Source of the DNA: a virus
DNA length: 64,000 nt
Direction: 5' to 3' (one strand)
IMG/VR virus record: IMGVR_UViG_3300045051_000720
Coordinates: 124,001 to 188,000 of that record
Shown here: positions 2,047-64,000 of the stretch, piece after piece
How positions within the stretch are numbered: position 1 is the stretch's first letter
Layout: each line of letters opens with the position of its first letter
Notes under the pieces: model-generated
The model's database searches: none
Told to the model about the DNA's origin: nothing
The model's input: the letters and a program-made list of their open reading frames with translations, nothing else
Position numbers and translations under genes: made by a program

Positions 2047-2083
2047 TTGACGGTCGGGTCTAACCCGGCTATCCTGAGCATAC
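2047..2083 (+). promoter_or_regulatory. Leaderless promoter for the helicase gene
   Basis: TTGACG at 2047, 17-bp spacer containing TCTAAC, TATCCT at 2070, then 8 bases to the ATG at 2084. Confidence 0.7.
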
Positions 2084-3583
2084 ATGGCTTCGCTATACGC
2101 ACCGGAGGTGGAGGGCAACGCGTTGGCCCTCCTGCTCCAAGACCCATCAGTCTGGGGCGATTTCTATCTCATCAACCGGGATGATTGGTCCAAAGCCCAT
2201 CAGCCCCTGTGGGATGTGATTGCCCAGCAGCTCAATCAGACCCCGCCCGGGTCTGTGACCCCGATGATGTTGGCGGAGCGGCTTCGCGGGTTTGGCGTGG
2301 TGCTTGAGGGGGGATTTGACCCGTACGAATACCTCCAAGGCCTGACGACGCGCTACGTGGAGAAAAAAGAAGCCCCGCACCTCGCGCGCGAGTTGAAGCG
2401 CCTGACCGTGCGGCGCGAGTTGGTGGGCAAGATGGACGCGGCGAGAAAGGAGCTGGTGGCAACCCCGAATGCTACATTTGAATCGATGGCTGCTCTTGTA
2501 GAGAAGGCCTTGACATCAGTCACGACAGAGTATTACCGCCCCGAGGTAACCGAGGTGCTTGGTGAACATATCATAGAAGTGGTAGAGAAGCGGGCGGAGA
2601 AACCTCTTACCGCTGAGGAGTCAGGCTATCTTGGGCCGTTCAAATCAATCAACGAGACTATTGGCCCCCTCAGCTATCGAGGAAGCTATACGGTAGTAGG
2701 TAGCAGGTCTGGCGGCGGAAAGTCCTCATTGGCATGGTTTTACCAAACCTACCTCGCAGAGAAATTTGACCTGCCTATCCTTCATTGTGATGCCGCCGAA
2801 ATGACGGTGGAAGAGCTACAATGGCGTGCGGTGTGTGCGATGTCGGAAGGGGAGATCCCTTACTGGGCGGTGTTCCGGGGTCAGTGGAAAAACAACCCTC
2901 GTTGGGCATCACTCGTGCGCGACAAGATCTGGCCGCGCGTGCGTAAGTTGCGGGTTTACTACAAGAACATGGGGGTCATGTCGCCGCAGGAGCGCATTGC
3001 GTTTATCCGGCGGTTCTATTATCAAAAGGTTGGGAGGGGATCGCACCTCTTGATTAATGACGATTACCTCAAGGCCGTGCAATCGTTCAACCGTGAAGCT
3101 AAAGAACATCAAATGTTGGGCAACTACGTCAACGATCAGAAGAGTCTCATCACGGAGGAAATCGAGGCGTCTATCTGGACGGGTCTTCAGCTCAACCAGT
3201 CCGGTATCGTGACAGGGAAAAAAGAGGCGGACCTGAACGATTCTGAGGGGGCGTTCTCTCTATCCGACCGCATTCTCCAGCAGTCCACCCATTCCCTACT
3301 GCTGCGCTACAAGGTAACCGAACAGCTCGCGCGCGAGAAAAACCTGTTCGGCAACGTCTGCGCTATCCCTCTCAAGAAACGACAGCTCCTTGGCGAGAGA
3401 TACCAAGAGATGTTGTTGCCTATCAAGATGCCGAACGGGAAGTTTGTGCAGAACGCCGTGAACCTCGAAACGAAGGGGTTTTGGTATCGGGACTGCGGGA
3501 CGACGGCGGAGATGCTGAAGGTGTTGGGGCAGGGGGTTGTAGACATGGCTACGTCGGAGCAACCACAGACTCAACCTCTTTAA
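2084..3583 (+). CDS. dnaB: Replicative DNA helicase, DnaB family
   Basis: A 499-residue replicative helicase. Residues 1-110 resemble the DnaB N-terminal domain (EVEGNALALLL; HQPLWDVI). The RecA-like core has Walker A GSRSGGGKSS at about 206-215, a DAAEM segment after the first strand (the DnaB PxEM-type region), and LLINDDYLK as the Walker B-like strand. It would unwind the fork and load with the Toprim primase encoded 1 kb downstream. Family members are usually about 450 residues; the extra length lies between Walker A and the C terminus. The 3' end overlaps the convergent HNH gene by 35 bp. It has its own leaderless promoter. Confidence 0.85.
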   Translation: MASLYAPEVEGNALALLLQDPSVWGDFYLINRDDWSKAHQPLWDVIAQQLNQTPPGSVTPMMLAERLRGFGVVLEGGFDPYEYLQGLTTRYVEKKEAPHLARELKRLTVRRELVGKMDAARKELVATPNATFESMAALVEKALTSVTTEYYRPEVTEVLGEHIIEVVEKRAEKPLTAEESGYLGPFKSINETIGPLSYRGSYTVVGSRSGGGKSSLAWFYQTYLAEKFDLPILHCDAAEMTVEELQWRAVCAMSEGEIPYWAVFRGQWKNNPRWASLVRDKIWPRVRKLRVYYKNMGVMSPQERIAFIRRFYYQKVGRGSHLLINDDYLKAVQSFNREAKEHQMLGNYVNDQKSLITEEIEASIWTGLQLNQSGIVTGKKEADLNDSEGAFSLSDRILQQSTHSLLLRYKVTEQLAREKNLFGNVCAIPLKKRQLLGERYQEMLLPIKMPNGKFVQNAVNLETKGFWYRDCGTTAEMLKVLGQGVVDMATSEQPQTQPL

Positions 3584-4421
3584 TGCCGGCCCATCGTTCA
3601 TGAAGAATAGAGCACAGCTCAATAAATCGGTCCATCGACATATCTTGCTTCATGCTGTTGACTTCCCACGTACAAAAGACCAAGTTGCCTTTGACATAGC
3701 CACGTGTGGAATCTACTCTATCAAGACTCAGTGTCGCGCTCTCATTGGGACGGAACGTCAGCTCAGTCCCGGTGTAGTAACATTTCCCATCTTGCTTATG
3801 ATAAAGTGTGCGCAGGTAGTCAAGGTCTATATTATGCTCAAAGCCATGTTTGTCGCGGCGATCCAGCGACGATACCAAGCGTTGTTTCAATGCGCGCTCA
3901 AGGCTGTATTTACCCCATCGTCGCTCGTTCTCATAGGCGATGACTTGAGGGTACCGCTTACCATGAGGGATGTGATGGGTACGACAGCGGCTCGCGATAA
4001 CATCCGGCGTACGTCTTATTTCCGCCGCAATACCATCAATGCTTATACCTTCTTGTAGCCTTTGTATCACCAGTAGACGTTCTCGTTCGGTCCATCGTCG
4101 TTTGTGGGTGCGACGTGATATACCATGCATGGTGGCTAGATGCTTGATGCGGAAGACTGGTACCTTGAGAGATTTACCTAGATCCTTGAAGGTGCGTCCT
4201 TTGATGAGGTGTTCGGCCTCAATGATGGCTACAAGTTGGTCGTCGGGTATAGGTGGGATCGGTTTGCGAATACGCGGTAGACCGAGTTTCGCCAATCGCT
4301 TATCAACCCTATCTACCCCAAGACCCATCTTATTCGCTATCTCGCTAAGGGATAGGTGTTGGGAGTGTAACTCGCGTAGTCGGGCGTCATCGCCTTCCGT
4401 CCAATGTTTGTAGCCCTTCAT
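3549..4421 (-). CDS. HNH homing-type endonuclease with repeated HTH segments
   Basis: A 290-residue protein. The N-terminal half holds two or three SANT/HTH-like DNA-binding repeats (WTEGDDARLRELH and WTERERLLVIQRLQ, each followed by an IA-helix). The C-terminal half is an HNH domain: GKCYYTG, then LSLDRVDSTRGYVKGN and NLVFCTWEVNSMK. The start chosen is ATG 4421, which overlaps the RHH gene's stop (ATGA); an ATG seven codons upstream is possible. Base composition is more AT-rich than in the flanking genes, which fits a mobile intruder. It lies antisense between helicase and primase, a usual niche for phage homing endonucleases. Confidence 0.85.
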   Translation of the reverse strand: MKGYKHWTEGDDARLRELHSQHLSLSEIANKMGLGVDRVDKRLAKLGLPRIRKPIPPIPDDQLVAIIEAEHLIKGRTFKDLGKSLKVPVFRIKHLATMHGISRRTHKRRWTERERLLVIQRLQEGISIDGIAAEIRRTPDVIASRCRTHHIPHGKRYPQVIAYENERRWGKYSLERALKQRLVSSLDRRDKHGFEHNIDLDYLRTLYHKQDGKCYYTGTELTFRPNESATLSLDRVDSTRGYVKGNLVFCTWEVNSMKQDMSMDRFIELCSILHERWAGIKEVESVVAPT

Positions 4422-4582
4422 AGTTTCTTCGTCTCCTTCCATCGCTTGTACTCAGCCCTGATGCCATGGGAGATAATGGTGACGAGTTTGAGACCGGTCG
4501 CCGAGGCCATCTCGCGCAGCATTGCGTCGATGTCGGCGGCCAGTTTGAGGTTCAGTCGCGGGGTGTTGGATGGTGTAGCCAT
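4418..4582 (-). CDS. Small ribbon-helix-helix DNA-binding protein
   Basis: A 54-residue reading frame read from 4582 down. RLNLKLAADIDAMLREMA followed by a second helix (TGLKLVTIISHGIRAEYKRW) is the layout of CopG/Arc-type ribbon-helix-helix repressors: one beta strand and two helices. AGGAG lies five bases before the ATG. The stop overlaps the HNH start by ATGA, so the two form one antisense cassette and this protein may autoregulate it. That role is inferred from family and context. Confidence 0.7.
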   Translation of the reverse strand: MATPSNTPRLNLKLAADIDAMLREMASATGLKLVTIISHGIRAEYKRWKETKKL

Positions 4583-4613
4583 GCACTCCTATACACCCAC
4601 GGCGCGCCAGTTT

Positions 4614-4688
4614 ATGACCACCCTCGGCGCGGCGCAGGTCGACATGGGAGTGGATGATCCCGCCAAGTCCAAGGCGCAGCCACTGTGA
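4614..4688 (+). CDS. Possible 24-aa leader ORF before primase
   Basis: A short frame from ATG 4614 whose TGA overlaps the primase ATG (TGATG). The coupling arrangement matches other pairs in this genome, but the peptide has no recognisable feature and no clear promoter. It could be chance. Confidence 0.3.
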   Translation: MTTLGAAQVDMGVDDPAKSKAQPL

Positions 4689-6974: not shown

Positions 6975-7009
6975 TTGACTCCACCGGTCAACGTGGGTAG
7001 AGTGCCGTC
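6975..7009 (+). promoter_or_regulatory. Leaderless promoter/operator for rtcB
   Basis: TTGACT at 6975, 17-bp spacer, TAGAGT at 6998, six bases to ATG 7010. TTGAC and GTCAA form a perfect dyad seven bases apart. Confidence 0.75.
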
Positions 7010-8506
7010 ATGCGCTCTTATCCCAATGCCGCCGCAGCCCGCGCGGCCTGTATAAATCGTGGTGACGCCCAGTGGTTGCTCCCTATCGAGGGACGCCAAC
7101 CAGTCACGCTCATCGCCAACGACGAGATTTTTGTCGGGTTCGATGACAAGGTGTTCGAGCAGATCGTGAACGCCGCCGAGATGCCGGGCGCAGAGCGGGT
7201 AGTCATTGGGGCTGACGCGCACGTTGGCTTTGGCATCTGTGTGGGTACGACCGTGGTGTCGGAGACGCATGTTTATCCTCCCGTCGTGGGACCGGATGCA
7301 TGTTGTTCCCTCGCATTCCTCCAAACCGACCTGCCTGAGGATGCTATCAAGGACAAAACCGCGCGTCGTGCGCTCATCAATGCCATCACGGCGCGTATTC
7401 CCACGGGACTCGGCAATCGTCAAGCACCCAAGGCGCGCACGCTCAACCTTGAGGTACTGGTGTCAGTGGTTTGCGGAGGAGCGAGCGGGAACAATCTCCG
7501 CCTGTTAGGTATCCCCGAGGAGTGGGCGACTAAGTGCGAGCGGGCGGTCTATGGTCCTTCATTCGCGCGCCTGTCTGACCGCTTGCACGTCATCACCTGC
7601 GAACGCCCCGAGCTGTTACCTAAGTTGTTGGCTTTGGCGAGCTTAGGGGCCGGCAACCATTTTCTCAGCGGCGACATTGTGGACCTTGGCCGCATTGCCG
7701 GTACGCAAGGTCTCCCTGACGAGTTTGGTCTGCGTCAGGGTTGCTTCGGCTCGCTGTCGCATTGCGGGTCCAGAGGGTTTGGGTTTCAGTTGATGGCCTA
7801 TCATGAGCGCAAACTCAAGGCTCATTTTGAGCGGTGGGGCATTCCGTTTACAGGCGGCGATCACCACCTCATCTGCGCGCCCGTCGACACTCCTGAGGCG
7901 CGTGACTACATGCTCGACCTCGCGCTCGCGGCCAACTTCGCAGTCGTTAACCATCTCCTCATCCAAACCTATGTGTTGGAGGCCGTGCAGGAGGTTTTCC
8001 CCGGCGCGCGGGGCGACTTAGTCTATCACATCAGCCACAACGTGGGTCAACAAGAGGTCCTTGACGGACGACTCAAGTGGGTGTTCCGCAAGGGTGCGAC
8101 GCGGGCTTTCCCGGCAAACCATCCGGGGCTCAAGGGTTCTATCTATGAACGGATCGGTCATCCCATCCTACTGCCCGGCAACGCGCGCGATGGTAGTCTC
8201 ATCATGGTGGCACGACAGGGTGCCAAGACCGCCTCGTTTTCGGTCAACCACGGGGCCGGTAGATCGTTGGGGCGCAAAGAGGCTAAGCGGCGGTTGGTTC
8301 AGAAGGAGGTCGACCAAAATCTGCTTGACTCCGACGTAATGCACAATGGGCGGACTTACCCACTCGACGAGGCCCCGGGCGCCTACAAGGACTTCGATGA
8401 GGTCACGAGAAGCGTTGTGGCAGCAGGCCTTGCTACGGCTGTTGCGCGACTGACGCCGCGATTCGTTATCAAGGACTGTGATCCGTCACCGGAGGGCGCG
8501 GCATGA
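7010..8506 (+). CDS. rtcB: RNA-splicing ligase RtcB
   Basis: A 498-residue RtcB, full length for the family. It joins RNA 3'-phosphate or 2',3'-cyclic phosphate ends to 5'-OH ends using GTP and Mn2+. Visible motifs: GADAHVG near residue 67, GPDACC with the metal-binding Cys near 98-99, GAGNHFLSGD, HCGSRGFG, YHISHNVGQQE, RKGATRAFPA, and SVNHGAGRSLGRKEAKR in which His 414 is the expected guanylylated residue. Phage RtcB homologues are thought to repair tRNAs cut by host ribonucleases; that role is inferred. It has its own leaderless promoter and is coupled by ATGA to the next small gene. Confidence 0.95.
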   Translation: MRSYPNAAAARAACINRGDAQWLLPIEGRQPVTLIANDEIFVGFDDKVFEQIVNAAEMPGAERVVIGADAHVGFGICVGTTVVSETHVYPPVVGPDACCSLAFLQTDLPEDAIKDKTARRALINAITARIPTGLGNRQAPKARTLNLEVLVSVVCGGASGNNLRLLGIPEEWATKCERAVYGPSFARLSDRLHVITCERPELLPKLLALASLGAGNHFLSGDIVDLGRIAGTQGLPDEFGLRQGCFGSLSHCGSRGFGFQLMAYHERKLKAHFERWGIPFTGGDHHLICAPVDTPEARDYMLDLALAANFAVVNHLLIQTYVLEAVQEVFPGARGDLVYHISHNVGQQEVLDGRLKWVFRKGATRAFPANHPGLKGSIYERIGHPILLPGNARDGSLIMVARQGAKTASFSVNHGAGRSLGRKEAKRRLVQKEVDQNLLDSDVMHNGRTYPLDEAPGAYKDFDEVTRSVVAAGLATAVARLTPRFVIKDCDPSPEGAA

Positions 8507-8817
8507 ACACCCTCACTAAGGACGGACTCATTGGCTCCTCGGGCCTCGGTGTTGACGGGTCTGTTTTCTTCCACATCGCCGCCAACTACGCCGCCGGGCG
8601 CGGCAAGTGCTTTGTCGAGTGGTTTGGCCGAGGCGATTCGGCGCCCGACTGGAAGCGCATGACCCTCAAACGCGCGCACAAGGAGGGGAGACACATCATC
8701 GCCTGTGCGCATTGTGACAAGCCCGCCATCTCGTTGGACCATCTCTGGCCTTATCACAGCGAGATGAACTACTGCGCGGCGCATCGCGGGGCTTATCAAG
8801 CCTCACTCAAGGCTTGA
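8503..8817 (+). CDS. Hypothetical protein with Cys/His cluster
   Basis: 104 residues. The C-terminal half has IIACAHCDKPAISLDH and YCAAH, a likely C-x2-C plus C/H metal site. Coupled to rtcB by ATGA. Family not recognised. Confidence 0.6.
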   Translation: MNTLTKDGLIGSSGLGVDGSVFFHIAANYAAGRGKCFVEWFGRGDSAPDWKRMTLKRAHKEGRHIIACAHCDKPAISLDHLWPYHSEMNYCAAHRGAYQASLKA

Positions 8818-8849
8818 CTTGACCATCCAACCCCGCTACTCTGCCCCTA
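8814..8849 (+). promoter_or_regulatory. Leaderless promoter of the 8.85-12.6 kb operon
   Basis: TTGACT at 8814, 17-bp spacer with TCCAAC, TACTCT at 8837, seven bases to ATG 8850. Confidence 0.7.
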
Positions 8850-9092
8850 ATGGACCTGACCGATCACTACACCACCCTCCTCGCTGAACTCGACAAGACC
8901 CTTTCGCTTGTCCGGTCCTTCTGGATCGAGTCGCGGGACGAGTTCGAGAAGCGGAAGAATCAGAAACGGCTGGATGAGCTACTCGATGAGCGGTTGCGCC
9001 TCATGCGTGCGCGCGACGCGGCAGAGGCCACAAAAAGACCGGTAGAGACACCCTTTGTCAAAAGCGTCAAGGTCAAGAAGGAGGCGAGATGA
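8850..9092 (+). CDS. Hypothetical charged helical protein, 80 aa
   Basis: First gene of a ten-gene overlapping chain. Rich in Arg, Lys, Glu and Leu and predicted by eye to be mostly helical (KRLDELLDERLRLMRAR), possibly a short coiled coil. Confidence 0.6.
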   Translation: MDLTDHYTTLLAELDKTLSLVRSFWIESRDEFEKRKNQKRLDELLDERLRLMRARDAAEATKRPVETPFVKSVKVKKEAR

Positions 9093-14646: not shown

Positions 14647-14924
14647 CCGATTTCACTCGTGAGCCGCGCCAGTACGAAGATCCCTCTCAGCTGGTCTTCC
14701 CGCCCGAGCTACTCGCCAAGGCGATCTCAGCCAAGCCCTGTCGTCACCCCCGCACCGCGCGCCGGGTGGGTCCACGCATCCCCGCGCGTTACGGCTCATG
14801 GGCGACCGAGATGTGTTCGCGCTGCATGAGCTGGCGGTACGATCGGGGTGGATGCAAGGGCGATCGGTTCTGGCGCGGGCTGGACGAGATGGTAAGGTTG
14901 CTCCACCGCGAGGATGAGGATTGA
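14643..14924 (+). CDS. Hypothetical protein with zinc-like site, 93 aa
   Basis: Coupled by ATGA. PCRHPRTARR and MCSRCMSW give C-x2-H plus C-x2-C spaced by about 30 residues, a possible zinc ribbon. Its TGA lies inside the TTGACA box of the next promoter. Confidence 0.55.
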   Translation: MTDFTREPRQYEDPSQLVFPPELLAKAISAKPCRHPRTARRVGPRIPARYGSWATEMCSRCMSWRYDRGGCKGDRFWRGLDEMVRLLHREDED

Positions 14925-14955
14925 CATGGGTGGTCAACGTGGCTATGATGAGGTG
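14921..14955 (+). promoter_or_regulatory. Leaderless promoter/operator of polymerase core operon
   Basis: TTGACA at 14921, 17-bp spacer, TATGAT at 14944, six bases to ATG 14956. TTGAC-N7-GTCAA is a perfect dyad. Confidence 0.75.
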
Positions 14956-14991
14956 ATGACGCCCTGTGAACAGATGGAGGAGACGCAGTGA
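14956..14991 (+). CDS. 11-aa leader peptide before the exonuclease
   Basis: The ATG six bases after the -10 box opens an 11-codon frame (MTPCEQMEETQ) whose TGA overlaps the exonuclease GTG (GTGA). The spacing matches the genome's leaderless rule, so ribosomes would start here and reinitiate on the exonuclease. Inferred, not proven. Confidence 0.5.
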   Translation: MTPCEQMEETQ

Positions 14992-15641
14992 TCGGCAGTG
15001 GTCTCACCCGCTATAGCGACGAGGTCTTTCTTTGCTGGGACACCGAGTCGTGCCATCCATCGCTTAATCTTGCTTACGCGCGCCCGTGGGAGCTGACCTA
15101 CGCTCTCGCCACGCTCAAGGGTGGGATTCAATCCATTCATACCCACCTGATCCGCTGGCCCAACATGGTGCTGACGGAGGACAATCCTTCCCTCGCCCAC
15201 TTTGATCCCGTCCGCTACGAACGCGAGGCGCGCGACCCGCGCGAGGTGTACGGAGAGTTCGGCCCGCTCCTGCGCAAGCATCGCTCGGTGTTTCACGGGG
15301 GGTTGGGGTTCGACGTGTACGTCGAGGGCGTCTGGCGGCGCGAGATCGGGCTGCGCGCCGACTATGAGTGGCTGCGCAATCCGGGGTGTCTGGACACCAA
15401 CTGCCTGTCCAAGGCGCTAAAGGGTCAGTGGACCCCCGACACCAGTTCGCCCGAGGCGTTTCTCGCGTGGCAGTATCGGGCTTATCATACCTTTCTCCCC
15501 AAAGGCACCAAGACCAAGTTGGGCGATATGTGCGTTGAGCTAGGTATCGAGTTTGATGCCAAGCAGGCGCACGGGGCCGAATATGACGTTACCCGCACGA
15601 TGGCCCTGCTCAAGGAGCTTGTGTTCAAGATCGAGGTATGA
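14988..15641 (+). CDS. DnaQ-like 3'-5' exonuclease (proofreading)
   Basis: 217 residues of the DEDDh exonuclease fold. CWDTESCHP near residue 16 gives the D-x-E of Exo I, GLGFDVYV gives the Exo II Asp, and HGAEYDVTRTMALLKEL gives the H-x4-D of Exo III. This is the epsilon-type proofreading subunit expected beside a polymerase III alpha. Start is GTG 14988, overlapping the leader peptide's TGA. Its stop is coupled to the polymerase core (ATGA), consistent with equal dosage of the two. Confidence 0.8.
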   Translation: MIGSGLTRYSDEVFLCWDTESCHPSLNLAYARPWELTYALATLKGGIQSIHTHLIRWPNMVLTEDNPSLAHFDPVRYEREARDPREVYGEFGPLLRKHRSVFHGGLGFDVYVEGVWRREIGLRADYEWLRNPGCLDTNCLSKALKGQWTPDTSSPEAFLAWQYRAYHTFLPKGTKTKLGDMCVELGIEFDAKQAHGAEYDVTRTMALLKELVFKIEV

Positions 15642-18184
15642 CCGCCTTCACTAGCCAGTTCACCCCGCTCGCGTTCCCCCATTTCGGGATGGTCAAGCTA
15701 CCATCCATCACGATCACACCTGAGCAGAAGGCCTCGGTCGGTCTTCCTGCCACCGCGACCAATCAAGCGTTCCTGCTCGCCTTGGCGCGGGCGGGGTATA
15801 CCAAACGGGAGGCGGTCATCCCTGTTCAGCGACGTAAAGAATATGGTGATCGGGTTAAACGCGAGCTGGCGACGTTCGAGGAGCTTGGGTTCACGGACTA
15901 CGTGTTGCTGGTCTGGCTGGTCATCAACAAGGCGCGCGAGCTGGGGGTGTTCATAGATTACGGAAGAGGCTCGTGCGCTGGGAGTTGCGTTTTTTGGCTG
16001 CTTGGCATCACGGGCGTCGATCCCATTGCCAAGCGCCTCCTCTTCGAGCGGTTCGTCTCGCGCGTGCGCTCCAAGAAACAGGTCATCGACGGCGAGACCT
16101 ACCTCCAAGGCGACCTGATTGCCGACGCCGACCTCAACCTCGGCACCGGTCTTGACCAGATCGTGGCGTGGCTGGAGACCCTCTACCCCGGCGCGGTGTG
16201 TAAGATCGTGACCCACGGCACCCTCAAGGGCAAGGTGCTCATCAACGACGTGTACAAGACCATGGAGGGGGCCTCGCAGGAGGAGTCGCAGCGCATCTCG
16301 GGGATGGTCGAAACCAAGTACGGGGTGGTTGAGGATGTGGCAGACGCCTACGAGAAACACCCCGACTTCAAGCAGTGGGCCGACAAGCACAAGGAGACCT
16401 ACGAGGTATGCCTGCGCCTGCGTGATCTGATCCGCCAGAGCGGTGTGCACGCCAGCGGCTACGTACTCTCCGCGCGCCCCTTCGATGGCTTTCTCCCCAT
16501 CCAGCTGAGCAAGGACAAGGAGATCATCTCGTGCTACGAGATGGAGGACGTGTGCAACTACGCCGTCAAGCTGGACCTACTCGGACTCATCACCAACAAG
16601 GTCGTCAAGGAGGTGATCGACGCGACGGGGGTGGACATCACCACGCTTAATCTCGACTCCGACCCGTTCATCTACGACCGTTTTCAAGATGGCAAGCTGC
16701 TCCCGTGGGGGCTATATCAGATCTCGGCGGACTGCGCATATGGCGTGACTGCCGCCATCAAGCCCAAGAACATATTCGAGCTGAGCGACGTGAACGCTAT
16801 AGCCCGCCCGGGAGCCCTAGCGTACCTCTCGGGCTACGTCGAGAACAAGGCGCAGTGCCCGCACCCGGTCTTCGAGACCATCCTCAAGCCGACGCGCTTT
16901 TATTGCTTATATCAGGAACAAATGATGCATATGGCTGTGGCTGTGGGGTTTACATTGGATGAGGCCGAGATCCTGCGCAAGATCGTGGGCAAGAAGCAGG
17001 TCGAGAAGGTCAAGGAGTGGAAGGACAAGATCTACGCGCGCGTGGCGCAGAGCAACCTGCCCGCCAATCTGGGCGACATCCTGTGGAAGATCCTTGAGGA
17101 CAGCGCGTCGTACTCGTTCAATCTGTCGCACTCCCTCTCCACGAGCTACCTGACCGCCCTCACGGTCTACCTCAAGTACCGCTACCCGAAGGAGTTCATG
17201 TGCGCGTGCTTGAACGCCGCCAAGGACATTGATGAGCGTCGTCAGATCGGGCAGGAGCTGGGCCAGTTGGGTATCAAGATCCTCCCCGCCGACATCATCA
17301 AGTCGCGCCCGCGCTTCACCATCGAGGGCGATGGTATCCGCTATGGGTTGGAAGCGGTGCGCGGCGTCAAGAGTTATGCCGACAAGCTGGGGTCGTTCAA
17401 CCGCGTGTTCGAGTCCAAGTTCACCATCTTCGAGGTTGCCAAGGCGGCCAAGATCAACATCTCGGTCCTGACCTCGCTCATCTACGCGGGTTGCCTCGAC
17501 TCCATCATCTATGATGGCTCATCCCGCGCCAAGCTCGCGCTGGAGGCCCAGCTTTACAACCTCTTGACACCCAACGAGAAGGTGCTCGCCAAACGGTATG
17601 CCGACGAGTACAAAGACGACCTGCTCGCGCTGGTGAGGGGTATCGGCGAGAAGAAGAACGAGAAGGGCAAACCGCTGATCCAGCCATCGCGCATGACGAC
17701 GCTACGTCGGGACTACGCCCCGTGTTGGGAGCAGTACACTGCCAACGCCAAGAACGAGCTGCTCACGAGCTACGTGATGGAGCGCCACCTGTTGGGCTTC
17801 TCTTACTCCGCCACGCTCCATGGGTGCTATGCGTCGCGCATACCAACCCTCATCCCCCTCAAGGACATCGCCCAACACAAGGGCACCAAGGAGGTCTTCA
17901 AGTGCGTGGCTATCGTTGAAGAGGGGAAGGTACACATCAGCCAAAAAGGTGCGCCCTATTATCGGGCAGACGTGTTTGACGACGACACCAGTGCGCGCAT
18001 CATGCTGCATGGAGCAGAAAGAGTCGAGTCGTGCAAGGGGTATAACGGCGACCTCCCCAAGGCCGGTGACATCATCACCCTCACGGGCCAGCTATCCGCG
18101 GATGGCAAGATGATCTTCGCCGATAACATCGTCGTGCAGCCCGCGCTCGTCAAACTCAAGAAGACCGACGCCCCCGAGATATGA
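15638..18184 (+). CDS. dnaE: DNA polymerase III alpha, catalytic core (DnaE)
   Basis: 848 residues beginning where the PHP domain would end in a normal DnaE. It has the palm motif YGRGSCAGS near residue 109, the catalytic pair in IADADLN (Asp 163 and 165) and the third Asp in VKLDLLG (313). The fingers region has VNAIARPGALAYLSGYVE and the QEQMMHMA helix; the HhH-like segment includes AASLN-type SASYSFNLSHS. The C-terminal OB fold runs from about residue 745 (EVFKCVAIVEEGK). Bacterial DnaE is about 1,160 residues; together with the 259-residue PHP protein this accounts for a split alpha. No intein or clamp-binding motif was identified with confidence. Confidence 0.9.
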   Translation: MTAFTSQFTPLAFPHFGMVKLPSITITPEQKASVGLPATATNQAFLLALARAGYTKREAVIPVQRRKEYGDRVKRELATFEELGFTDYVLLVWLVINKARELGVFIDYGRGSCAGSCVFWLLGITGVDPIAKRLLFERFVSRVRSKKQVIDGETYLQGDLIADADLNLGTGLDQIVAWLETLYPGAVCKIVTHGTLKGKVLINDVYKTMEGASQEESQRISGMVETKYGVVEDVADAYEKHPDFKQWADKHKETYEVCLRLRDLIRQSGVHASGYVLSARPFDGFLPIQLSKDKEIISCYEMEDVCNYAVKLDLLGLITNKVVKEVIDATGVDITTLNLDSDPFIYDRFQDGKLLPWGLYQISADCAYGVTAAIKPKNIFELSDVNAIARPGALAYLSGYVENKAQCPHPVFETILKPTRFYCLYQEQMMHMAVAVGFTLDEAEILRKIVGKKQVEKVKEWKDKIYARVAQSNLPANLGDILWKILEDSASYSFNLSHSLSTSYLTALTVYLKYRYPKEFMCACLNAAKDIDERRQIGQELGQLGIKILPADIIKSRPRFTIEGDGIRYGLEAVRGVKSYADKLGSFNRVFESKFTIFEVAKAAKINISVLTSLIYAGCLDSIIYDGSSRAKLALEAQLYNLLTPNEKVLAKRYADEYKDDLLALVRGIGEKKNEKGKPLIQPSRMTTLRRDYAPCWEQYTANAKNELLTSYVMERHLLGFSYSATLHGCYASRIPTLIPLKDIAQHKGTKEVFKCVAIVEEGKVHISQKGAPYYRADVFDDDTSARIMLHGAERVESCKGYNGDLPKAGDIITLTGQLSADGKMIFADNIVVQPALVKLKKTDAPEI

Positions 18185-48526: not shown

Positions 48527-48559
48527 AGACAACGCCATCTGATCTGCTACCTTTTCACC
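48526..48559 (+). promoter_or_regulatory. Leaderless promoter, GAGACA variant
   Basis: GAGACA at 48526, 16-bp spacer, TACCTT at 48548, six bases to ATG 48560. Confidence 0.55.
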
Positions 48560-48934
48560 ATGTCCACCCATTTCCCTCAATCCTCCGGTGGGTCCATCTA
48601 CTTCCCCTGTTCACCCGACCAGTTCGCGGTGTTCAAGCGGGGCGATAGGGTCGTGCGCACAGCGGTCAGCGTCCCCTCTTCCTTTGAGTGGATAGAGAGC
48701 GGTGAGCCGCCGCAGAAGGACAAGGTCTATGTGGTTCGCGACTACCACTACGGCTACGCCGAGACCAACGGCGGTCGCCCCCCTGTCTATGGCCAAATCC
48801 TCAATCTGGTCGAGTGCGTGTGTCATAGGACCCCGCAAGGACTTGAATACGGCTGGTTTCACGCGGGTTTTCGTAAGGTGACCGAGGAGGAGATCGCCGC
48901 GCGAGTGGCCCAGACACAGGAGGTTTCTTTATGA
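48560..48934 (+). CDS. Hypothetical protein, 124 aa
   Basis: YFPCSPDQFAVFKRGDRVV begins a beta-rich protein; KVYVVRDYHYGYAET and LNLVECVCH continue it, resembling a small phage protein family that starts with a hydrophobic strand pair. Unknown. Confidence 0.6.
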   Translation: MSTHFPQSSGGSIYFPCSPDQFAVFKRGDRVVRTAVSVPSSFEWIESGEPPQKDKVYVVRDYHYGYAETNGGRPPVYGQILNLVECVCHRTPQGLEYGWFHAGFRKVTEEEIAARVAQTQEVSL

Positions 48935-50144: not shown

Positions 50145-50164
50145 CACTAGGCATCGTTTGGCAA

Positions 50165-50583
50165 CACTTAAAGGCGGGGCTTGGCAGGGCTGGGCACGGC
50201 GGGGCACGGTTAGGCAAGTGTAAGGCAAGGAACGCGGTTCGGTATGGCAACGCGGGGCGACGCCGGGTTTGGCCGGGCGTGGCCGGGCGCGGCGAGGTTG
50301 GGTTAGGCATGGAACATGGTGTGGTGAGGCTGGGTATGGCGGGGCATGAGTAGGGCGAGGAACATGGTAGGGCAAGGCTGGGCGCGGCTGAGCAGGGTCA
50401 GGTCCGGTACGGCTAGGCTCGGTTAGGCAAGGTCCGGGGCAGCGCGAGGTGTGGCACGGCTTGGCTGGGCAACGCACGGCCGGGTCCGGCGAGGCAAGGA
50501 ACGAGGTGAGGTGGGGCAGGGCAGCGCGCGGCGTGGTCAGGCAGGGCTTGGCAGGGCAACGCAAGGTCCGAGGCGCGACGGTC
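50165..50583 (+). repeat. Degenerate five-base-periodic G-rich repeat
   Basis: About 420 bp built from GG(C/T)NN units (GGGCT, TGGCA, CGGCG, AGGCA and so on) in almost unbroken 5-base register with a few shifts. The + strand is extremely G-rich and C-poor. Reading frames through it give low-complexity Gly/Ala/Arg/His peptides and are not genes. Possible roles: replication origin, G-quadruplex-forming block, or packaging/recombination site. It is the only strongly repetitive tract in the window. Confidence 0.8.
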
Positions 50584-50602
50584 TATCCGCGCACAATTTC
50601 TC

Positions 50603-50709
50603 TTGACAGTAGGCTCTAACATCACTACCTTCACATTATCTCCAATAGGCACCTACGCTCAGACAATCACGTCAACGAGCATCACTCGTGACCGAACGAG
50701 ACAACGCAC
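50603..50709 (+). promoter_or_regulatory. Promoter with a ~70-nt 5' leader
   Basis: TTGACA at 50603, 17-bp spacer with TCTAAC, TACCTT at 50626. Unlike the others, the start codon is 78 bases further on. The leader has the hairpin ACGAG-CATCA-CTCGT and ends with CCGAACGAGACAAC before ATG 50710. Confidence 0.6.
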
Positions 50710-51372
50710 ATGCAAAAGTATAATATCGCACTCGTTGGGGCAAATCCGCTCCTTCTTCATCACGACAACATCTCGTGGGCTGGGCTCATGAACGAATGGA
50801 ATACGGACCCCGCGAACAAAGCCAAGTCCGTCGCGGGCGACGACCGCACTCCCGCTCACCGTTGGATTGGTTGTCTATACCACGAGGGTGGTCGTCTCAT
50901 CGTCCCCAGCGATAACCTCATGACTATGCTGCGTGAGGGTGGCGCGCGATGTCCGACTGGAAAGAAAGGCGCGACGTTCAAACGTCAGACCCAATCCGGG
51001 CTGGTTGTCGACCAGAGCGGATGGTCCTTGACTGTTGATGGCAAGGAAATCCCCTATGATCCTATTGCCAAGCTTATCGACGAGCCCGACTTCACCAAGC
51101 ACGAGAAGACGGTAGCGAAGATGGGTTTTGCGCTGTTTGTTAAACGCGCCCGTGTCAACCAGACCAAACATGTCCGTGTGCGTCCTCGGTTCGACCGTTG
51201 GGAGGCGGCGGGCTCCATTACCGTGTTCGACGATACTATCACTGACCGCGTACTCGAAGACATCCTCAAGTTTGGAGGTCGTTACGCCGGTCTTGGCGAT
51301 TGGCGTCCATCATCCCCGAAATCCCCCGGACCATTCGGAACCTTCACGGTGACCGTTTCCCCCGCATCATGA
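50710..51372 (+). CDS. Conserved phage protein, 220 aa
   Basis: GANPLLLHHDNISWAGLMNEW, IVPSDNLMTMLREGG, and ILKFGGRYAGLGDWRP near the end form a distinctive family I have seen in phages and bacteria without assigned function; the C-terminal GRYxGLGDWRP is its hallmark. Codon use is less GC-biased than neighbours, consistent with strong expression from the adjacent promoter. Coupled by ATGA to the next gene. Confidence 0.65.
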   Translation: MQKYNIALVGANPLLLHHDNISWAGLMNEWNTDPANKAKSVAGDDRTPAHRWIGCLYHEGGRLIVPSDNLMTMLREGGARCPTGKKGATFKRQTQSGLVVDQSGWSLTVDGKEIPYDPIAKLIDEPDFTKHEKTVAKMGFALFVKRARVNQTKHVRVRPRFDRWEAAGSITVFDDTITDRVLEDILKFGGRYAGLGDWRPSSPKSPGPFGTFTVTVSPAS

Positions 51373-51842
51373 GCGCAACAACCAAACTCTTCGGCGGCGG
51401 CGTTCCTACTCAACCCGAGGTTGAAAGCCTGATCAAACGATTTGGTGTTCCTGCGGTAGGGACATCGATTCTCTATGTCGATATTGCGGCTACCATTGGA
51501 CATCCTGTTCGTAGCAATCGCTATCTCGCTGTAGTATCAAGGTGGCGTAAACGTCTGTTCCAGCAGCATAATCTATTGCTGGACCCTATTCATGGTGAAT
51601 CCTATACGGTCTGTAACAACAGCCAACGTATTTCCCACAGCACTGGCAAGTACAAAAGCGGCCTTCGGCATATTCGACGTGCGTCCGAAGTAGCTGCTCG
51701 GACCGACACAGAAGGATTGCTTCCCGACGAGATGCGGGCTCGCGACCATATCGTCAAGACCGGTAATGCTTTGCAGCTAGCGGCGGCCACTGCCGCACGG
51801 CAACTCAAATATGTTGCGCCGGGGCTACCTCAGTCAACGTGA
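51369..51842 (+). CDS. Hypothetical protein, 157 aa
   Basis: Coupled by ATGA to the preceding conserved protein and sharing its codon style. SNRYLAVVSRWRKRLFQQHN, then a basic middle and DEMRARDHIVKTGNALQLAA. It resembles phage proteins encoded next to that family; unknown role. Confidence 0.6.
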   Translation: MSATTKLFGGGVPTQPEVESLIKRFGVPAVGTSILYVDIAATIGHPVRSNRYLAVVSRWRKRLFQQHNLLLDPIHGESYTVCNNSQRISHSTGKYKSGLRHIRRASEVAARTDTEGLLPDEMRARDHIVKTGNALQLAAATAARQLKYVAPGLPQST

Positions 51843-51864
51843 AGATGTCACGTACCGTTTTACC

Positions 51865-52302
51865 ATGACCATCGTTGACACCTCCACCCGCCTCCCCACC
51901 ACCCCCGGACCCTACGCGGTTCTGGTCAAACCCGCACAGGGCTACCACCGCGCCATTGAGACCGGCGTGAGCTGGGATGGGTCATGGAAAGGGACCGATG
52001 ATCCCGTCGTCGCGTGGGTTGACACCGCCGCGCGCGTTGCCGTTGTGCCTTCTCCGACTCAGGCGGTTGAACCCTCATCCTATTCCCTCACCCTCGTGGG
52101 CTTCGATCCTACCAGCAAGATCGGCGTGATCAAGCTCGTGCGCGAGCTGACGGGGCTCGGGTTGGCTGAATCCAAAGCGACGGTCGAGGCCCTTGCGATC
52201 AAACCCCTCATGATCAAGGAGAATGCTTCTCGCGCCGAGGTAACCGCACTGGACACCCGTCTGCGCGCGGCGGGTGGGGTGACCAAACTGGAGGCCGTAT
52301 GA
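51865..52302 (+). CDS. Ribosomal protein bL12 C-terminal-domain protein
   Basis: 145 residues. From about residue 72, YSLTLVGFDPTSKIGVIKLVRELTGLGLAESKATVEALAIKPL and the final AAGGVTKLEAV follow the L7/L12 C-terminal domain pattern (VIKxVRExTGLGLxEAK; the domain that recruits translation GTPases). The first 70 residues are not the bL12 N-terminal dimerisation domain; they form a beta-rich module (PGPYAVLVKPAQGYHRAIE). It may hook translation factors or act as a decoy. Stop is coupled by ATGA. Confidence 0.7.
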   Translation: MTIVDTSTRLPTTPGPYAVLVKPAQGYHRAIETGVSWDGSWKGTDDPVVAWVDTAARVAVVPSPTQAVEPSSYSLTLVGFDPTSKIGVIKLVRELTGLGLAESKATVEALAIKPLMIKENASRAEVTALDTRLRAAGGVTKLEAV

Positions 52303-53148: not shown

Positions 53149-53456
53149 ACCCCGTCCGTCAGCGGGTCGTTGAGAACCCAACCCTGATCGTGGACACCAC
53201 CACCGCCGCGATGGTGGCTTGGCTTCGCGCCGCCGGCTTCGTGGATGGCGATCTCAAGGACATCTCGGACCGCCCACCCGAGGGCGTGTACCTGCGTCGG
53301 GGCACCACCTACGTGTTTATCGCGACCTACGAAGGTCGCTTCTGCGAGGCCATCATCGAGCGACTAGACCAACCCAAACAGCCCAAGCGGAGGGTGGTTG
53401 GTACTGGGACGATTGCGCGATCGATGGACGAGCTGGTGGTGGTCATAGGGTCTTGA
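53145..53456 (+). CDS. Hypothetical protein, 103 aa
   Basis: GTG 53145 overlaps the previous stop (GTGA). Beta-rich C-terminal half. Unknown. Confidence 0.55.
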   Translation: MNPVRQRVVENPTLIVDTTTAAMVAWLRAAGFVDGDLKDISDRPPEGVYLRRGTTYVFIATYEGRFCEAIIERLDQPKQPKRRVVGTGTIARSMDELVVVIGS

Positions 53457-53462
53457 CCCTAC

Positions 53463-53497
53463 TTGACAACCGCGTTCAACTCGGGTAGGGTACCACG
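53463..53497 (+). promoter_or_regulatory. Leaderless promoter
   Basis: TTGACA at 53463, 17-bp spacer with TTCAAC, TAGGGT at 53486, six bases to ATG 53498. Confidence 0.75.
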
Positions 53498-53962
53498 ATG
53501 TCATCCTGCACCTGTCAATCCTGCCAAGGAGCTTGTAAGCGCAAACCCGGCTGGTTCAAGCCCGGTGAGGTTGAAGCCGTGGCCGCGTTCATGGGGTTGA
53601 CGCTGCCCGAGCTGTTCGCCAAACACTTGGCGGCGGATTGGTGGGAGGATAGCGAACCTACCTTCGTGCTCTCTCCCGGCATCATCCGCTTTGGTGAGCC
53701 CCACGTGGGCACCGAGATGCCCGGCAACCCGCTGGGCCAGTGTGTGTTCTACAAGGATGGGCGCTGTTCCATCCATAAGGTCAAGCCTTTTGAGTGCCGG
53801 GCCTACCATCATGAGCTGACTCACGAACAGGTCAAAACCAACCATCGCGCGGCCTTCGAGGCTTGGGCCATGCCCGAGCACCAGAAGCAGATCGCGGACC
53901 TGTTGGGCCGCGAGCCGGTGGCTGAGTCGTACAGCATCTTTGACTCCTTCATGTGGCGATGA
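53498..53962 (+). CDS. YkgJ-type cysteine-cluster protein
   Basis: 154 residues. CTCQSCQGACKRKPG, then CVFYKDGRCSIHKVKPFECR, match the YkgJ / putative zinc- or iron-chelating family with its C-x2-C-x3-C and C-x5-D-x-x-C-x-I-H patterns. The exact activity is unknown. Coupled by ATGA to the next gene; it has its own leaderless promoter. Confidence 0.85.
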   Translation: MSSCTCQSCQGACKRKPGWFKPGEVEAVAAFMGLTLPELFAKHLAADWWEDSEPTFVLSPGIIRFGEPHVGTEMPGNPLGQCVFYKDGRCSIHKVKPFECRAYHHELTHEQVKTNHRAAFEAWAMPEHQKQIADLLGREPVAESYSIFDSFMWR

Positions 53963-55036: not shown

Positions 55037-55279
55037 ATGACCAATTGGACTCCCTCAACCCACTGGGACCACGCCATCCCTACCTCCATTCCCGAGGTCA
55101 TTGCGCTGCTCGAACGGCGCATCGAGGTCCATGCCAAGTGGCTGGACTGGTTTGAGAACGGTCCTAGCGCCGAAACCGCCCGCGCGACAGAGGAGGGAGT
55201 TGGATGCGCTGCGTCGCAACGCGCGTATATCGCCCAGTATCGGGGCGCTATCGCGGCGCTTAGGGACAACACCCTATAG
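55037..55279 (+). CDS. Hypothetical protein, 80 aa
   Basis: AGGAAGGA eight bases before the ATG is one of few Shine-Dalgarno-like sites. IPEVIALLERRIEVHAKWLDW is a long helix. Unknown. Confidence 0.6.
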   Translation: MTNWTPSTHWDHAIPTSIPEVIALLERRIEVHAKWLDWFENGPSAETARATEEGVGCAASQRAYIAQYRGAIAALRDNTL

Positions 55280-55311
55280 ACACCGCGCGTTCGATCCGCT
55301 ACCGTCTCGCC
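55277..55311 (+). promoter_or_regulatory. Leaderless promoter, TAGACA class
   Basis: TAGACA at 55277, 17-bp spacer, TACCGT at 55300, six bases to ATG 55312. Confidence 0.7.
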
Positions 55312-55578
55312 ATGACTCCACGCACCGACGCCCAAGTCTGCCGACTAACCAAGCCCCTGACCGGGTTTGCGTCCTATCCCGACACCACTGAGGTCGTGCC
55401 GGCAGAACTGGCTCGTGAACTGGAGCGGCGTTTGACCACCCTTGGCGGCATCCAAACCCTCTGCTCAGAAGCCGCCCGCGCGTTACGTCAGATCAAGGAC
55501 CTCGCCAATGTCAACGAGCACACGCGCCAGATGCTGGTCAGCATTGGCAACAACCTCAACGAAGCATCACGTCGATGA
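55312..55578 (+). CDS. Hypothetical protein, 88 aa
   Basis: VPAELARELERRLTTLGGIQ and a later helix with VNEHTRQMLVSIGNNL. It heads a six-gene ATGA-linked operon. Unknown. Confidence 0.6.
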   Translation: MTPRTDAQVCRLTKPLTGFASYPDTTEVVPAELARELERRLTTLGGIQTLCSEAARALRQIKDLANVNEHTRQMLVSIGNNLNEASRR

Positions 55579-57040: not shown

Positions 57041-57093
57041 TATTCCCCAGCCATATGAGGGACACACCCTATGGTGTTCCACCGCCGGTCTGC

Positions 57094-57106
57094 TATACTA
57101 GACACC
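57094..57106 (+). promoter_or_regulatory. -10 box of a leaderless promoter, GTG start
   Basis: TATACT at 57094 and seven bases to GTG 57107; no good TTGACA at 17 bp, only ATGGTG. The spacing still fits the leaderless rule. Confidence 0.5.
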
Positions 57107-57403
57107 GTGAATACACCTATCCTCTCAGTTACCTTGACCGCCGCGCAGGGCCGCACCCTGCTTGCCTCTCTTCCCGAGGCCCCCGAAGGCTTGACCTACA
57201 TCTGCATCGGCCCCAACGTCTGGGGCTCCGCCAAGGTGGCGTCGAGCGCCGCGAAACGAGCGCGCGAGGAGGGTGGTGGCAAGGGACCCTACATCATCCA
57301 TCTGGTCAACGGGGGTGCCGAGGTTGACTGCGTGAGCGGCAACCTCTACTACGCCAAGAGCACGACTGGCCTTCAACTCGGCATCGCCCGATTCAAGCAA
57401 TGA
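57107..57403 (+). CDS. Hypothetical protein, 98 aa
   Basis: GTG 57107 chosen from the promoter distance; an ATG at 57071 lies upstream of the -10 box. LSVTLTAAQGRTLLASLPEA at the start. Beta-rich C terminus. Unknown. Confidence 0.55.
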   Translation: MNTPILSVTLTAAQGRTLLASLPEAPEGLTYICIGPNVWGSAKVASSAAKRAREEGGGKGPYIIHLVNGGAEVDCVSGNLYYAKSTTGLQLGIARFKQ

Positions 57404-58461: not shown

Positions 58462-58805
58462 ACCGCGAGCGTATCGACCTCTGCGCCGTCTGCGTCCCGG
58501 TCATCAAGGACCGCTTCATGCACGCGGCTGACCTATTCGAGCCCTTCAAGGTGCTCATCGAGGAGCCCATCCACATCTCGGGCTACATTGCCGAGGGCAA
58601 CGATACCGCGTCCTGCATCACCAAGACCCGTGCCGCGCTAGAGAAGACCGGCGACTATCGGGTCATCGCCATCTGGTGCTTGCAGCATCCAGAGGGAGCC
58701 TATCGTGACGAGACGGTCAAGGTGGTCAGCACCGGTCACGGCTGGTGTCTATTCCACGAGCTGTTGGAGCGGTATCAGTATCCGGTTGAGGTCTCTCCCC
58801 TATAG
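58458..58805 (+). CDS. Hypothetical protein, 115 aa
   Basis: Coupled by ATGA. DLCAVCVPVIKDRFMHA at the start; several Cys without a clear metal pattern. Unknown. Confidence 0.55.
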   Translation: MNRERIDLCAVCVPVIKDRFMHAADLFEPFKVLIEEPIHISGYIAEGNDTASCITKTRAALEKTGDYRVIAIWCLQHPEGAYRDETVKVVSTGHGWCLFHELLERYQYPVEVSPL

Positions 58806-58837
58806 ACATCCCCATCCAACTCGTCTATCCTCCCACC
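58803..58837 (+). promoter_or_regulatory. Leaderless promoter, TAGACA class
   Basis: TAGACA at 58803, 17-bp spacer with TCCAAC, TATCCT at 58826, six bases to ATG 58838. Confidence 0.75.
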
Positions 58838-59152
58838 ATGAACACCTTCGTCATGCTTTCCGACTGCGTGGACCCCAGCGACCCCCAAGGTCGCACCTAT
58901 CGCGAGATCAACGCCGCGAAGACACACGGCATCCCCATTGGCGCGCTTGTCGAGATCGGTCATCTCGACTATCCCTCCCCGATGGACGGCGCGCGGCTGT
59001 TTGTTGTCGCGCATAACCGTGATTGTGACGGCACTCCCCTGTATGCCCTCTGCGCGGACCCCGAGGACACAATCGTCCAGCGTAAGGGATTCGCCAACGA
59101 CAAATGGCATCATGGGTACAGCGAGGACAGTCTGACGGTTATCCGACCATGA
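58838..59152 (+). CDS. Hypothetical protein, 104 aa
   Basis: Beta-rich: GALVEIGHLDYPSPMDGARL and LFVVAHNRDCDGTPLYALC form one small domain. Unknown. Confidence 0.55.
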   Translation: MNTFVMLSDCVDPSDPQGRTYREINAAKTHGIPIGALVEIGHLDYPSPMDGARLFVVAHNRDCDGTPLYALCADPEDTIVQRKGFANDKWHHGYSEDSLTVIRP

Positions 59153-59971: not shown

Positions 59972-60396
59972 TCCTCTCCATCAGCGCGCCGTTCTGGCAG
60001 GTCGAGAAGTGGACCCACTCATGGCGCCATCGCGTGTGCCTCATTGAAGGCTTGACCTGCATCCAAGGCCAGACCCACTACAACGGGAGCACCCCTACCG
60101 CCATTGTGGTCGATGCCACCATCGCGCCGATTGTGCTGCGCCTGAACGAGCTGGGCCACACGACCCAGTTCTCATGCAGTGGGCTGAAGGAGGATCATGA
60201 CGATCCCCGCTGGGGGCACTTCGACGGGACGCATTGGGCCTATCTGGCGTTTGACCAGTGTGATCCCACTCTCGCGCCGCGCGGGGTGGTGGTCCAAGAC
60301 ACCCACCATGTCCATTGGACCTTCAGCCGTCAACTCACCCATCTCCGCACGCAATGGGAAGAGCTGGCGGCGCGGTTGGGAGTGGAGCTGTTGTAG
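59968..60396 (+). CDS. Conserved-looking protein, 142 aa
   Basis: VLRLNELGHTTQFSCSGLKE and the following acidic/His stretch resemble a small family in phages and bacteria with a conserved TxFSCSG motif; the Cys may be functional. Coupled by ATGA. Confidence 0.6.
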   Translation: MILSISAPFWQVEKWTHSWRHRVCLIEGLTCIQGQTHYNGSTPTAIVVDATIAPIVLRLNELGHTTQFSCSGLKEDHDDPRWGHFDGTHWAYLAFDQCDPTLAPRGVVVQDTHHVHWTFSRQLTHLRTQWEELAARLGVELL

Positions 60397-60410
60397 GGTA
60401 AACACCCTGC

Positions 60411-60445
60411 TTGACGGGCCACCCATCATCGAGTAACCTACCACC
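60411..60445 (+). promoter_or_regulatory. Leaderless promoter
   Basis: TTGACG at 60411, 17-bp spacer, TAACCT at 60434, six bases to ATG 60446. Confidence 0.65.
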
Positions 60446-60604
60446 ATGCGCTATCACTATCTCCTCACTCTCTCCACCTTCTGCCTTGGCTGGGCCGCGA
60501 TCGATGTAGTCAAGGGAACCATCAAGACATCGACCCATGGGTTCACCCTCGCCGCGCTGGCGCTGGTTGTGATCTATCTGGCGATCAAGGAGGCTCGTTC
60601 ATGA
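60446..60604 (+). CDS. Small membrane protein, 52 aa
   Basis: Two hydrophobic stretches (YLLTLSTFCLGWAAI and FTLAALALVVIYLAI). Coupled by ATGA to another membrane protein. Confidence 0.6.
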   Translation: MRYHYLLTLSTFCLGWAAIDVVKGTIKTSTHGFTLAALALVVIYLAIKEARS

Positions 60605-62436: not shown

Positions 62437-62444
62437 ATTCCCTA

Positions 62445-63520: not shown

Positions 63521-63532
63521 ACACCTTTCTCC

Positions 63533-63664
63533 ATGACCCTTTACCTCCGCGCTCTCTGGCGGCTGCTCTTGTTCAAAACCAGCGCCCCAATGACCGATCA
63601 TCAGTACCACACCATGATGGCACAGGCTGGCGCGCGGTGCCGGCACTGCGGGCTGCATCTATGA
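63533..63664 (+). CDS. Minigene, 43 aa
   Basis: Hydrophobic start (LYLRALWRLLLF), C-terminal RCRHCGLHL with a C-x2-C plus H. ATGA-coupled to the next gene. Confidence 0.45.
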   Translation: MTLYLRALWRLLLFKTSAPMTDHQYHTMMAQAGARCRHCGLHL

Positions 63665-63924
63665 TCTCATCTCTCAAACCCGACCCCGCCATCCTCGGAC
63701 CGATTGACGAGGCCCTGACCGCCTTTTATCCTGACCCTTGGACCTATCGGCACGAGGAGGGGGTAGCGTACTGGCGATGGCTCTGTGTGGATCGAATCGT
63801 GACACCGGAAGAGCTGGGTGTCATGCTGGACACCGTGCGCGGACTCAACCCGCGCGGGTTTTTTCGAGGGACGGTACTAGGCAAGCCGCTGACGGCTATT
63901 TTCTTCTATCCCGCGTTCTCGTAG
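63661..63924 (+). CDS. Hypothetical protein, 87 aa
   Basis: Coupled by ATGA. Contains TPEELGVMLDTVRGLNPRGF. Unknown. Confidence 0.55.
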   Translation: MISSLKPDPAILGPIDEALTAFYPDPWTYRHEEGVAYWRWLCVDRIVTPEELGVMLDTVRGLNPRGFFRGTVLGKPLTAIFFYPAFS

Positions 63925-63938
63925 GGTAATCCCCCCGC

Positions 63939-63973
63939 TAGACAGACCCCAATCGATCGGCTATCCTGCTCTC
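63939..63973 (+). promoter_or_regulatory. Leaderless promoter, TAGACA class
   Basis: TAGACA at 63939, 17-bp spacer, TATCCT at 63962, six bases to ATG 63974. Confidence 0.7.
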
Positions 63974-64000
63974 ATGACCATCCAACCCGCCATTGGCGAC
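63974..64000 (+). CDS. 5' end of a truncated gene
   Basis: Nine codons (MTIQPAIGD) open at the window edge, placed by the promoter spacing. Function not visible. Confidence 0.55.

Follow-up and report, generated by a model that had tools for sequence, protein, structure and literature searches.

Where do the transcripts of a large phage begin with respect to the first codon that they carry? The question is raised by a DNA stretch of 64,000 nucleotides (nt), hereafter the window, which spans bases 124,001-188,000 of the 219,464-base IMG/VR virus record IMGVR_UViG_3300045051_000720. The record represents a large bacterial virus, a 219-kb jumbo phage previously undescribed, and nearly all the genes in the window are on the plus strand. 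Sigma70-type promoters are found in this DNA at a nearly constant distance from start codons. As judged from this geometry, transcription very probably starts at the start codon, or 1-2 nt from it, and the first genes of the operons are leaderless. Sequence tracts covering 140 kb outside the window were also read as stretches, for a total of 204 kb of sampled sequence.

Promoters were searched with the strict pattern TTGACN or TAGACA, N17, TANNNT, using dinucleotide shuffles as control. The pattern occurs 23 times on the plus strand of the window and never on the minus strand, against a shuffle mean of about 0.3 per spacer length; spacers of lengths other than 17 bp are near background, and the peak at 17 bp falls within the 16-18 bp range of sigma70-type promoters. 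The eleven promoters cited in the initial annotation (from 6975 to 63939) were all found, each with a 17-bp spacer. An ATG follows the end of the -10 box in 17 of the 23 promoters, at 5 nt in one, 6 nt in 12, 7 nt in three and 8 nt in one, and ATGs at other offsets from 0 to 30 nt are almost absent. Promoters with a start at 5-8 nt increase to 19 when the GTG following promoter 42516 and the TTG following promoter 34304 are included. In all the sampled sequence, 30 of 53 promoters feature an ATG at 5-8 nt, compared to 7.7% of the TANNNT boxes lacking a -35 box (P = 4e-20), and the pattern recurs in the stretches outside the window. The fixed distance between -10 box and start, on which the initial annotation had insisted, is hence real.

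Start codons are placed similarly by other means. Most starts chosen by a coding-potential gene caller, which is based on codon statistics only and is blind to promoters, coincide with those predicted from promoters. Among 130 called starts that follow a gap, TANNNT boxes end 6, 7 and 8 nt upstream of 20, 9 and 5, respectively, and upstream of 0-3 at the other offsets from 0 to 30. The distance from box to start agrees with the approximately 10-12 bp of the genes known as TA-led. In bacteria, a TANNNT box some 12 bp ahead of a start codon that lacks a Shine-Dalgarno (SD) sequence has been used to call leaderless genes (Zheng et al. 2011, PMC3160421). The promoter at 29969-30007 (plus strand; TTGACA-N17-TAAGGT) is of interest in this respect. 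The long open reading frame (ORF) found there could open far upstream at a GTG; homology to phrog_8203 starts at residue 51, which corresponds to the ATG at 30005, 7 nt after the -10 box. Start codons, and hence proteins, can be placed from the position of the promoter alone, as homology confirmed for gene 30005.

The sigma70 holoenzyme initiates about 7 nt past the -10 box, and an offset of 6 nt therefore makes the A of the ATG the first transcribed base. In 15 of 19 offset-6 cases a pyrimidine immediately precedes the ATG, which fits initiation at the A. Promoter-led starts, as TA-led genes, carry no SD signal: the mean match is 2.0, and matches of at least 4 nt are found in 13%, vs 25% at control ATGs. 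Both the geometry of -10 boxes and ATGs and the missing SD signal support the early suggestion that first genes are leaderless. Downstream genes had been supposed to rely on ATGA coupling, and this is borne out in part. Overlaps of 4 nt (-4) are found at 109 of about 299 gene junctions; however, overlapping downstream genes are also richer in SD sequences (matches of at least 5 nt in 25%, vs 6% at control ATGs), and SD initiation is therefore probably in use too, the host ribosome probably using SD sequences as well.

Short leaderless ORFs precede longer genes at two sites on the plus strand. The promoter TTGACA-N17-TATGAT (14921-14991) is separated by 6 nt from the ATG at 14956 of an 11-codon mini-ORF, whose TGA overlaps by 4 nt the GTG (14988) opening the gene that precedes that of a DnaE-like DNA polymerase; a GGAGGAG tract lies within the mini-ORF, 5 nt before this GTG. 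Similarly, the promoter TTGACA-N17-TACGGT (21362-21492) is followed at 6 nt by the ATG at 21397 of a 31-codon ORF, which overlaps by 4 nt the next gene (ATG at 21489). Both look like landing ORFs for coupling, as their layout suggests.

In the scheme that we propose, early/middle-type operons would be read by host RNA polymerase (RNAP) with the housekeeping sigma from TTGACA/TAGACA-N16/17-TANNNT promoters. The -10 box, at 6 (5-8) nt from the first codon, would direct +1 to the A of the ATG or to an adjacent base, ribosomes would initiate at 5'-terminal AUGs devoid of SD sequences, and downstream genes would be reached through the 4-nt ATGA overlaps, with the aid of SD sequences. Taken as a whole, leaderless sigma70-type early/middle operons are, with good confidence, the best explanation of the data. 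One phage would provide about 20 natural leaderless test genes, alongside late-type leadered ones.

The promoters fall into three classes (A-C). Those of class A, found at 60-188 kb of the contig, have a near-consensus -35 box and a 17-bp spacer. Those of class B are located at the right end, above about 172 kb of the contig, and have TAGACA or TTGAC combined either with a 16-bp spacer and an extended -10 box (CTGN), or with a 17-bp spacer. GGG...CCC inverted repeats end 0-3 nt before the -35 box of class B promoters, and stems of at least 4 bp are found in 67%, vs 17% in shuffled sequence. Loop length is not constant, and in one stem both sides are altered (AAGGT/ACCTT), features that favour an RNA hairpin over a protein site. 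The hairpin joined to the -35 box probably closes the previous transcript, although this role is uncertain, because no U-run follows class B hairpins. Right-end gaps of 43-50 nt consist exactly of stop, hairpin, promoter and start.

The initial annotation described the rule as genome-wide and uniform. This is too broad, as the rule is limited to sigma70-type promoters. Structural genes, several genes of homing-endonuclease type and others are preceded by a different motif, AYAAH-N14-GTGTATA (class C), found nine times at spacing 14 in the sampled phage genome against a shuffle mean of 0.04. Two more copies, with the same spacing, are present in L128, the closest relative found, a 21-kb contig which covers late genes only and encodes a J protein 62% identical. 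The motif is often 25-51 nt away from the called start, and the 6-nt rule is absent, which provides an internal control. In the window, motifs of this type are ATAAT-N14-GTGTATA (20095-20120, plus strand) and ATAAA-N14-GTGTATA (4590-4615, minus strand), the latter ahead of a minus-strand gene. Uniformity is broken also by the leadered promoter 50603 and by several class A promoters near tRNA genes (L006:10578-15572), where a start 5-8 nt past the -10 box is mostly missing.

A phage protein (L003:15442-16179) matches Sigma70_r2 above the Pfam cut-off (contig 15478-15687). No sigma region 4 was detected in it at the cut-off, and a PDB search with this protein gave no match; the RNAP beta' model PF00623 had no match among the phage proteins. 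The Sigma70_r2 protein and the missing beta' match point to a scheme in which host sigma70 likely acts first and the phage sigma later, as in phages phiEco32 and 7-11. The predicted reader of AYAAH-N14-GTGTATA is the phage sigma, which would often yield leadered mRNAs from structural genes. The operon including the sigma gene itself is headed by a class A promoter (L003:14870), with a leader of about 22 nt.

Class A spacers carry an additional signal. Of 54 strict promoters, 33 have the dinucleotide AA at positions 10-11 of the spacer, whereas any other position has it in 0-3 (P = 8e-32); the AA is mostly followed by C, and in other phage promoters just a broad AA rise was seen in that spacer region. 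Assuming that +1 is 7 nt past the -10 box, AA(C) corresponds to -20/-19/-18, and falls inside the range -24 to -18 of the Z-element. This element (-24 to -18, or -17/-18) is the part of the spacer touched by the zipper of the RNAP beta' subunit, and reviews state that the sequence specificity of the contact is not established (PMC4496709, PMC5101437). The position is shared, but in the phage a specific dinucleotide is fixed in place. AA(C) at -20/-19(/-18) may raise the strength of class A promoters via RNAP-spacer contacts. We tentatively raise the possibility, which has less than even chances, that class A promoters consist of three parts, the third being AA(C) at -20, a spacer element recognized by its sequence (as a Z-element or as the site for a phage factor). 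Such promoters would drive a leaderless early/middle programme, followed by a phage-sigma switch to leadered late mRNAs. If so, a change in the mode of translation initiation would be built into the transcription programme of the phage; the fixed dinucleotide makes the sequence specificity of RNAP-spacer contacts directly testable.

Some observations weigh against leaderless sigma70-type operons. Four strict matches in the window (3691, 22536, 50603 and 63704) have no start at 5-8 nt; promoter 50603 is followed by a leader of about 73 nt, and the other three sit in coding sequences or have no convincing start. The housekeeping sigma is assigned by consensus match only, leaderless starts at GTG (42516) and TTG (34304) are expected to be weak, and class B promoters may depend on a phage factor. 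TANNNT boxes alone are common, and with four of 23 strict matches leading nowhere one might think of chance hits to a permissive consensus, given how densely the genome is filled with genes. The probability of this is practically nil, given 23 matches against 0.3 expected, none on the opposite strand, and sharp peaks of spacer length and offset; chance origin was refuted by the shuffles and by the held-out stretches outside the window. RNAP might alternatively start a few bases upstream, and give rise to nearly leaderless transcripts with leaders of 2-5 nt. Offsets of 7 and 8 nt do occur, and right-end sites with offset 7 often have before the ATG a G which permits +1 there. The mode is, however, exactly 6, so that +1 coincides with the A of the start codon, and pyrimidines prevail at -1, which makes such short leaders very unlikely as a general explanation; leaders of this size are in any case too small for a SD sequence, and the functional meaning would not change.

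Starts may also be pushed against promoters by the compactness of intergenic regions, leaderlessness being an unselected by-product. The right-end gaps, filled as described, are what packing predicts, and similar packing is seen in four unrelated viral contigs, which had been retrieved with the promoter pattern. Yet distances of 6-8 nt are kept at 20801, 29969 and 60411, where upstream gaps are larger or the promoter is inside the upstream ORF, and the late class of the same genome leaves leaders of 25-51 nt, so that packing seems a doubtful, if conceivable, cause. A further proposal takes -35 and -10 boxes and AAC as operators of a phage regulator (TTGAC-N7-GTCAA dyads), rather than as plain sigma70 promoters with a spacer contact. 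Such dyads are found at some sites, among which 6975, 14921, 20801 and 43204, and AA is fixed at its place in most strict promoters. Only AA(C) is well conserved, though, the preceding bases being TCC, GTC, TTC or TCT rather than the required dyad arm, and promoters lacking AA are equally often leaderless (11 of 21, vs 20 of 33 with AA). The operator hypothesis is improbable; the dyad was set aside as a poor fit, conservation being confined to AA(C).

Leaderless phage transcripts, as well as leaderless genes predicted from TANNNT boxes, are already known, and leaderless sigma70-type operons in this phage would add a variant of these. Middle and late mRNAs of the Thermus phage phiYS40 (Sevostyanova et al. 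2007) are mostly leaderless in the account given in PMC3594737. It is a large lytic phage with no RNAP match of its own and with one kinetic group, transcribed by host RNAP, mostly leaderless, and the same would hold here; leaderless mRNAs are middle/late in phiYS40, whereas here they would stem from sigma70-type, presumably early/middle promoters, the late-type motifs being often followed by leaders. No sequence kinship with phiYS40 was found, and the promoters differ. In TA-led genes of high-GC genomes the three middle bases of the -10 box are free, as here (PMC3160421); unlike these genes, the phage has a strong -35 box, a 17-bp spacer and a fixed AA(C). In Cluster O mycobacteriophages SigA-like promoters are predicted to initiate at the first base of the start codon (PMC4351075), but their genomes have 2-3 such promoters each, the window 19. 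Phages phiEco32 and 7-11 encode a sigma which redirects host core RNAP to late promoters, either single-element (tAATGTAtA) or bipartite (GTAAtg-16-aCTA; PMC8948821). These resemble AYAAH-N14-GTGTATA, and a phage-encoded sigma factor and a distinct motif before late genes are similarly found here; in contrast to phiEco32 and 7-11, sigma region 2 alone was detected, and recognition of the motif is predicted.

The unit TTGACA-N17-TANNNT-N6-ATG occurs 12 times in the sampled 204 kb (59 per Mb), vs 0-4 times in each of 274 genomes from the class to which a Vreelandella assembly belongs, a class that may not include the host. The contrast is overstated, because phages have dense promoters; with this proviso on the class compared, the density leans towards a phage strategy, rather than towards a host tolerant of leaderless translation, the other option raised in the initial annotation. 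Viral contigs had mostly single matches to the promoter pattern. Four unrelated ones (L107, L088, L111 and L282) host multiple units beyond that used to fetch them; being chosen by the pattern itself, they are leads only, and suggest that promoters are packed in this leaderless manner in other uncultivated phages too. Only 74 scattered matches were found in 257 Gb of genome contigs, and no host group stood out, the exceptions being a Cryobacterium locus matched repeatedly and a few matches in Cohnella.

The remaining promoters of the window are all on the plus strand. TTGACG-N17-TATCCT (2047-2086) lies 8 nt before the ATG at 2084 of a gene encoding a DnaB-like helicase, TTGACT-N17-TAGAGT (6975-7012) 6 nt before the ATG at 7010 (RtcB), and TTGACT-N17-TACTCT (8814-8852) 7 nt before the ATG at 8850. 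They are followed by TTGACA-N17-TATGAT (18512-18549; 6 nt, ATG 18547), TTGACT-N17-TACCCT (20801-20839; 7 nt, ATG 20837, DUF1643), TTGACA-N17-TAGACT (26914-26951; 6 nt, ATG 26949, 57 amino acids (aa)) and TAGACA-N17-TATCCT (33220-33257; 6 nt, ATG 33255). TTGACA-N17-TATACT (34304-34342) is 7 nt from the TTG at 34340 of a gene encoding a TnpB/Cas12f-like protein. Further on are TTGACA-N17-TATGAT (41949-41985; 5 nt, ATG 41983), TTGACA-N17-TATATT (42516-42553; 6 nt, GTG 42551) and TTGACG-N17-TACCTT (43204-43241; 6 nt, ATG 43239). At 48524-48562 a weaker -35 box (TAGAGA) is joined by an 18-bp spacer to an extended -10 box, CTGCTACCTT, 6 nt from the ATG at 48560. The leadered exception is TTGACA-N17-TACCTT (50603-50712; ATG 50710).

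Four sites include an inverted repeat. The hairpin AGGGTCTTGACCCT precedes TTGACA (53463)-N17-TAGGGT, 6 nt from the ATG at 53498 (53447-53500), and AGGGACAACACCCT precedes TAGACA (55277)-N17-TACCGT, 6 nt from the ATG at 55312 (55262-55314). A short repeat with a stem of 3, AGGTCTCTCCCCT, precedes TAGACA (58803)-N17-TATCCT, 6 nt from the ATG at 58838 (58789-58840), and the hairpin AGGGTAAACACCCT precedes TTGACG (60411)-N17-TAACCT, 6 nt from the ATG at 60446 (60395-60448). The last promoter, TAGACA-N17-TATCCT (63939-63976), is 6 nt from the ATG at 63974. At 57077-57109 a GTG (57107) is found 7 nt after the extended -10 box CTGCTATACT, and the gene probably starts there, instead of at the called ATG (57071).

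The window encodes, among others, the DnaE-like DNA polymerase, the DnaB-like helicase, RtcB ligase, a primase and nucleases; a lambda-type tail tip J protein, tail and tape-measure proteins and ribonucleotide reductase are encoded outside it. No match to phage records was found at the DNA level by megablast. The best protein matches of J and of the phrog_8203 homologue are to phages of Proteobacteria, such as Stenotrophomonas, Pseudomonas and Brevundimonas. Viral contigs scanned with the DNA polymerase, the helicase and the phrog_8203 protein gave no close relatives of the promoter-rich region; a NrdA scan retrieved unrelated low-GC viruses, which served as control. In a transposase-based search for the host on plasmids all matches were below 60% identity.

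A set of 14 tRNA genes is located at L006:10578-15572, and none in the window. The region 51811-52302 encodes a ribosomal protein L7/L12 C-terminal domain (E = 5e-14), and an ATG at 51865 lies there 6 nt after a TACCGT box lacking a good -35 box. Phage-encoded bL12 is already known (PMC6375957); that the L7/L12-domain protein is tied to leaderless translation is only an idea, and bS21 was not found in the phage. An Rfam scan of the window gave no match, and hence no RNA family was found beside the TnpB/Cas12f1-like gene (34340-36109), which encodes a protein of 589 aa (PF07282, phrog_506) and has its own class A promoter. A non-coding stretch of about 440 nt (50145-50590), just upstream of the leadered promoter 50603, features GG every 5 nt. 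GG autocorrelation is 56-59 at lags 5 and 10, with 43 per 300 nt, whereas the rest of the sampled genome never exceeds 13; the stretch might serve as an origin or be an element rich in G-quadruplexes.

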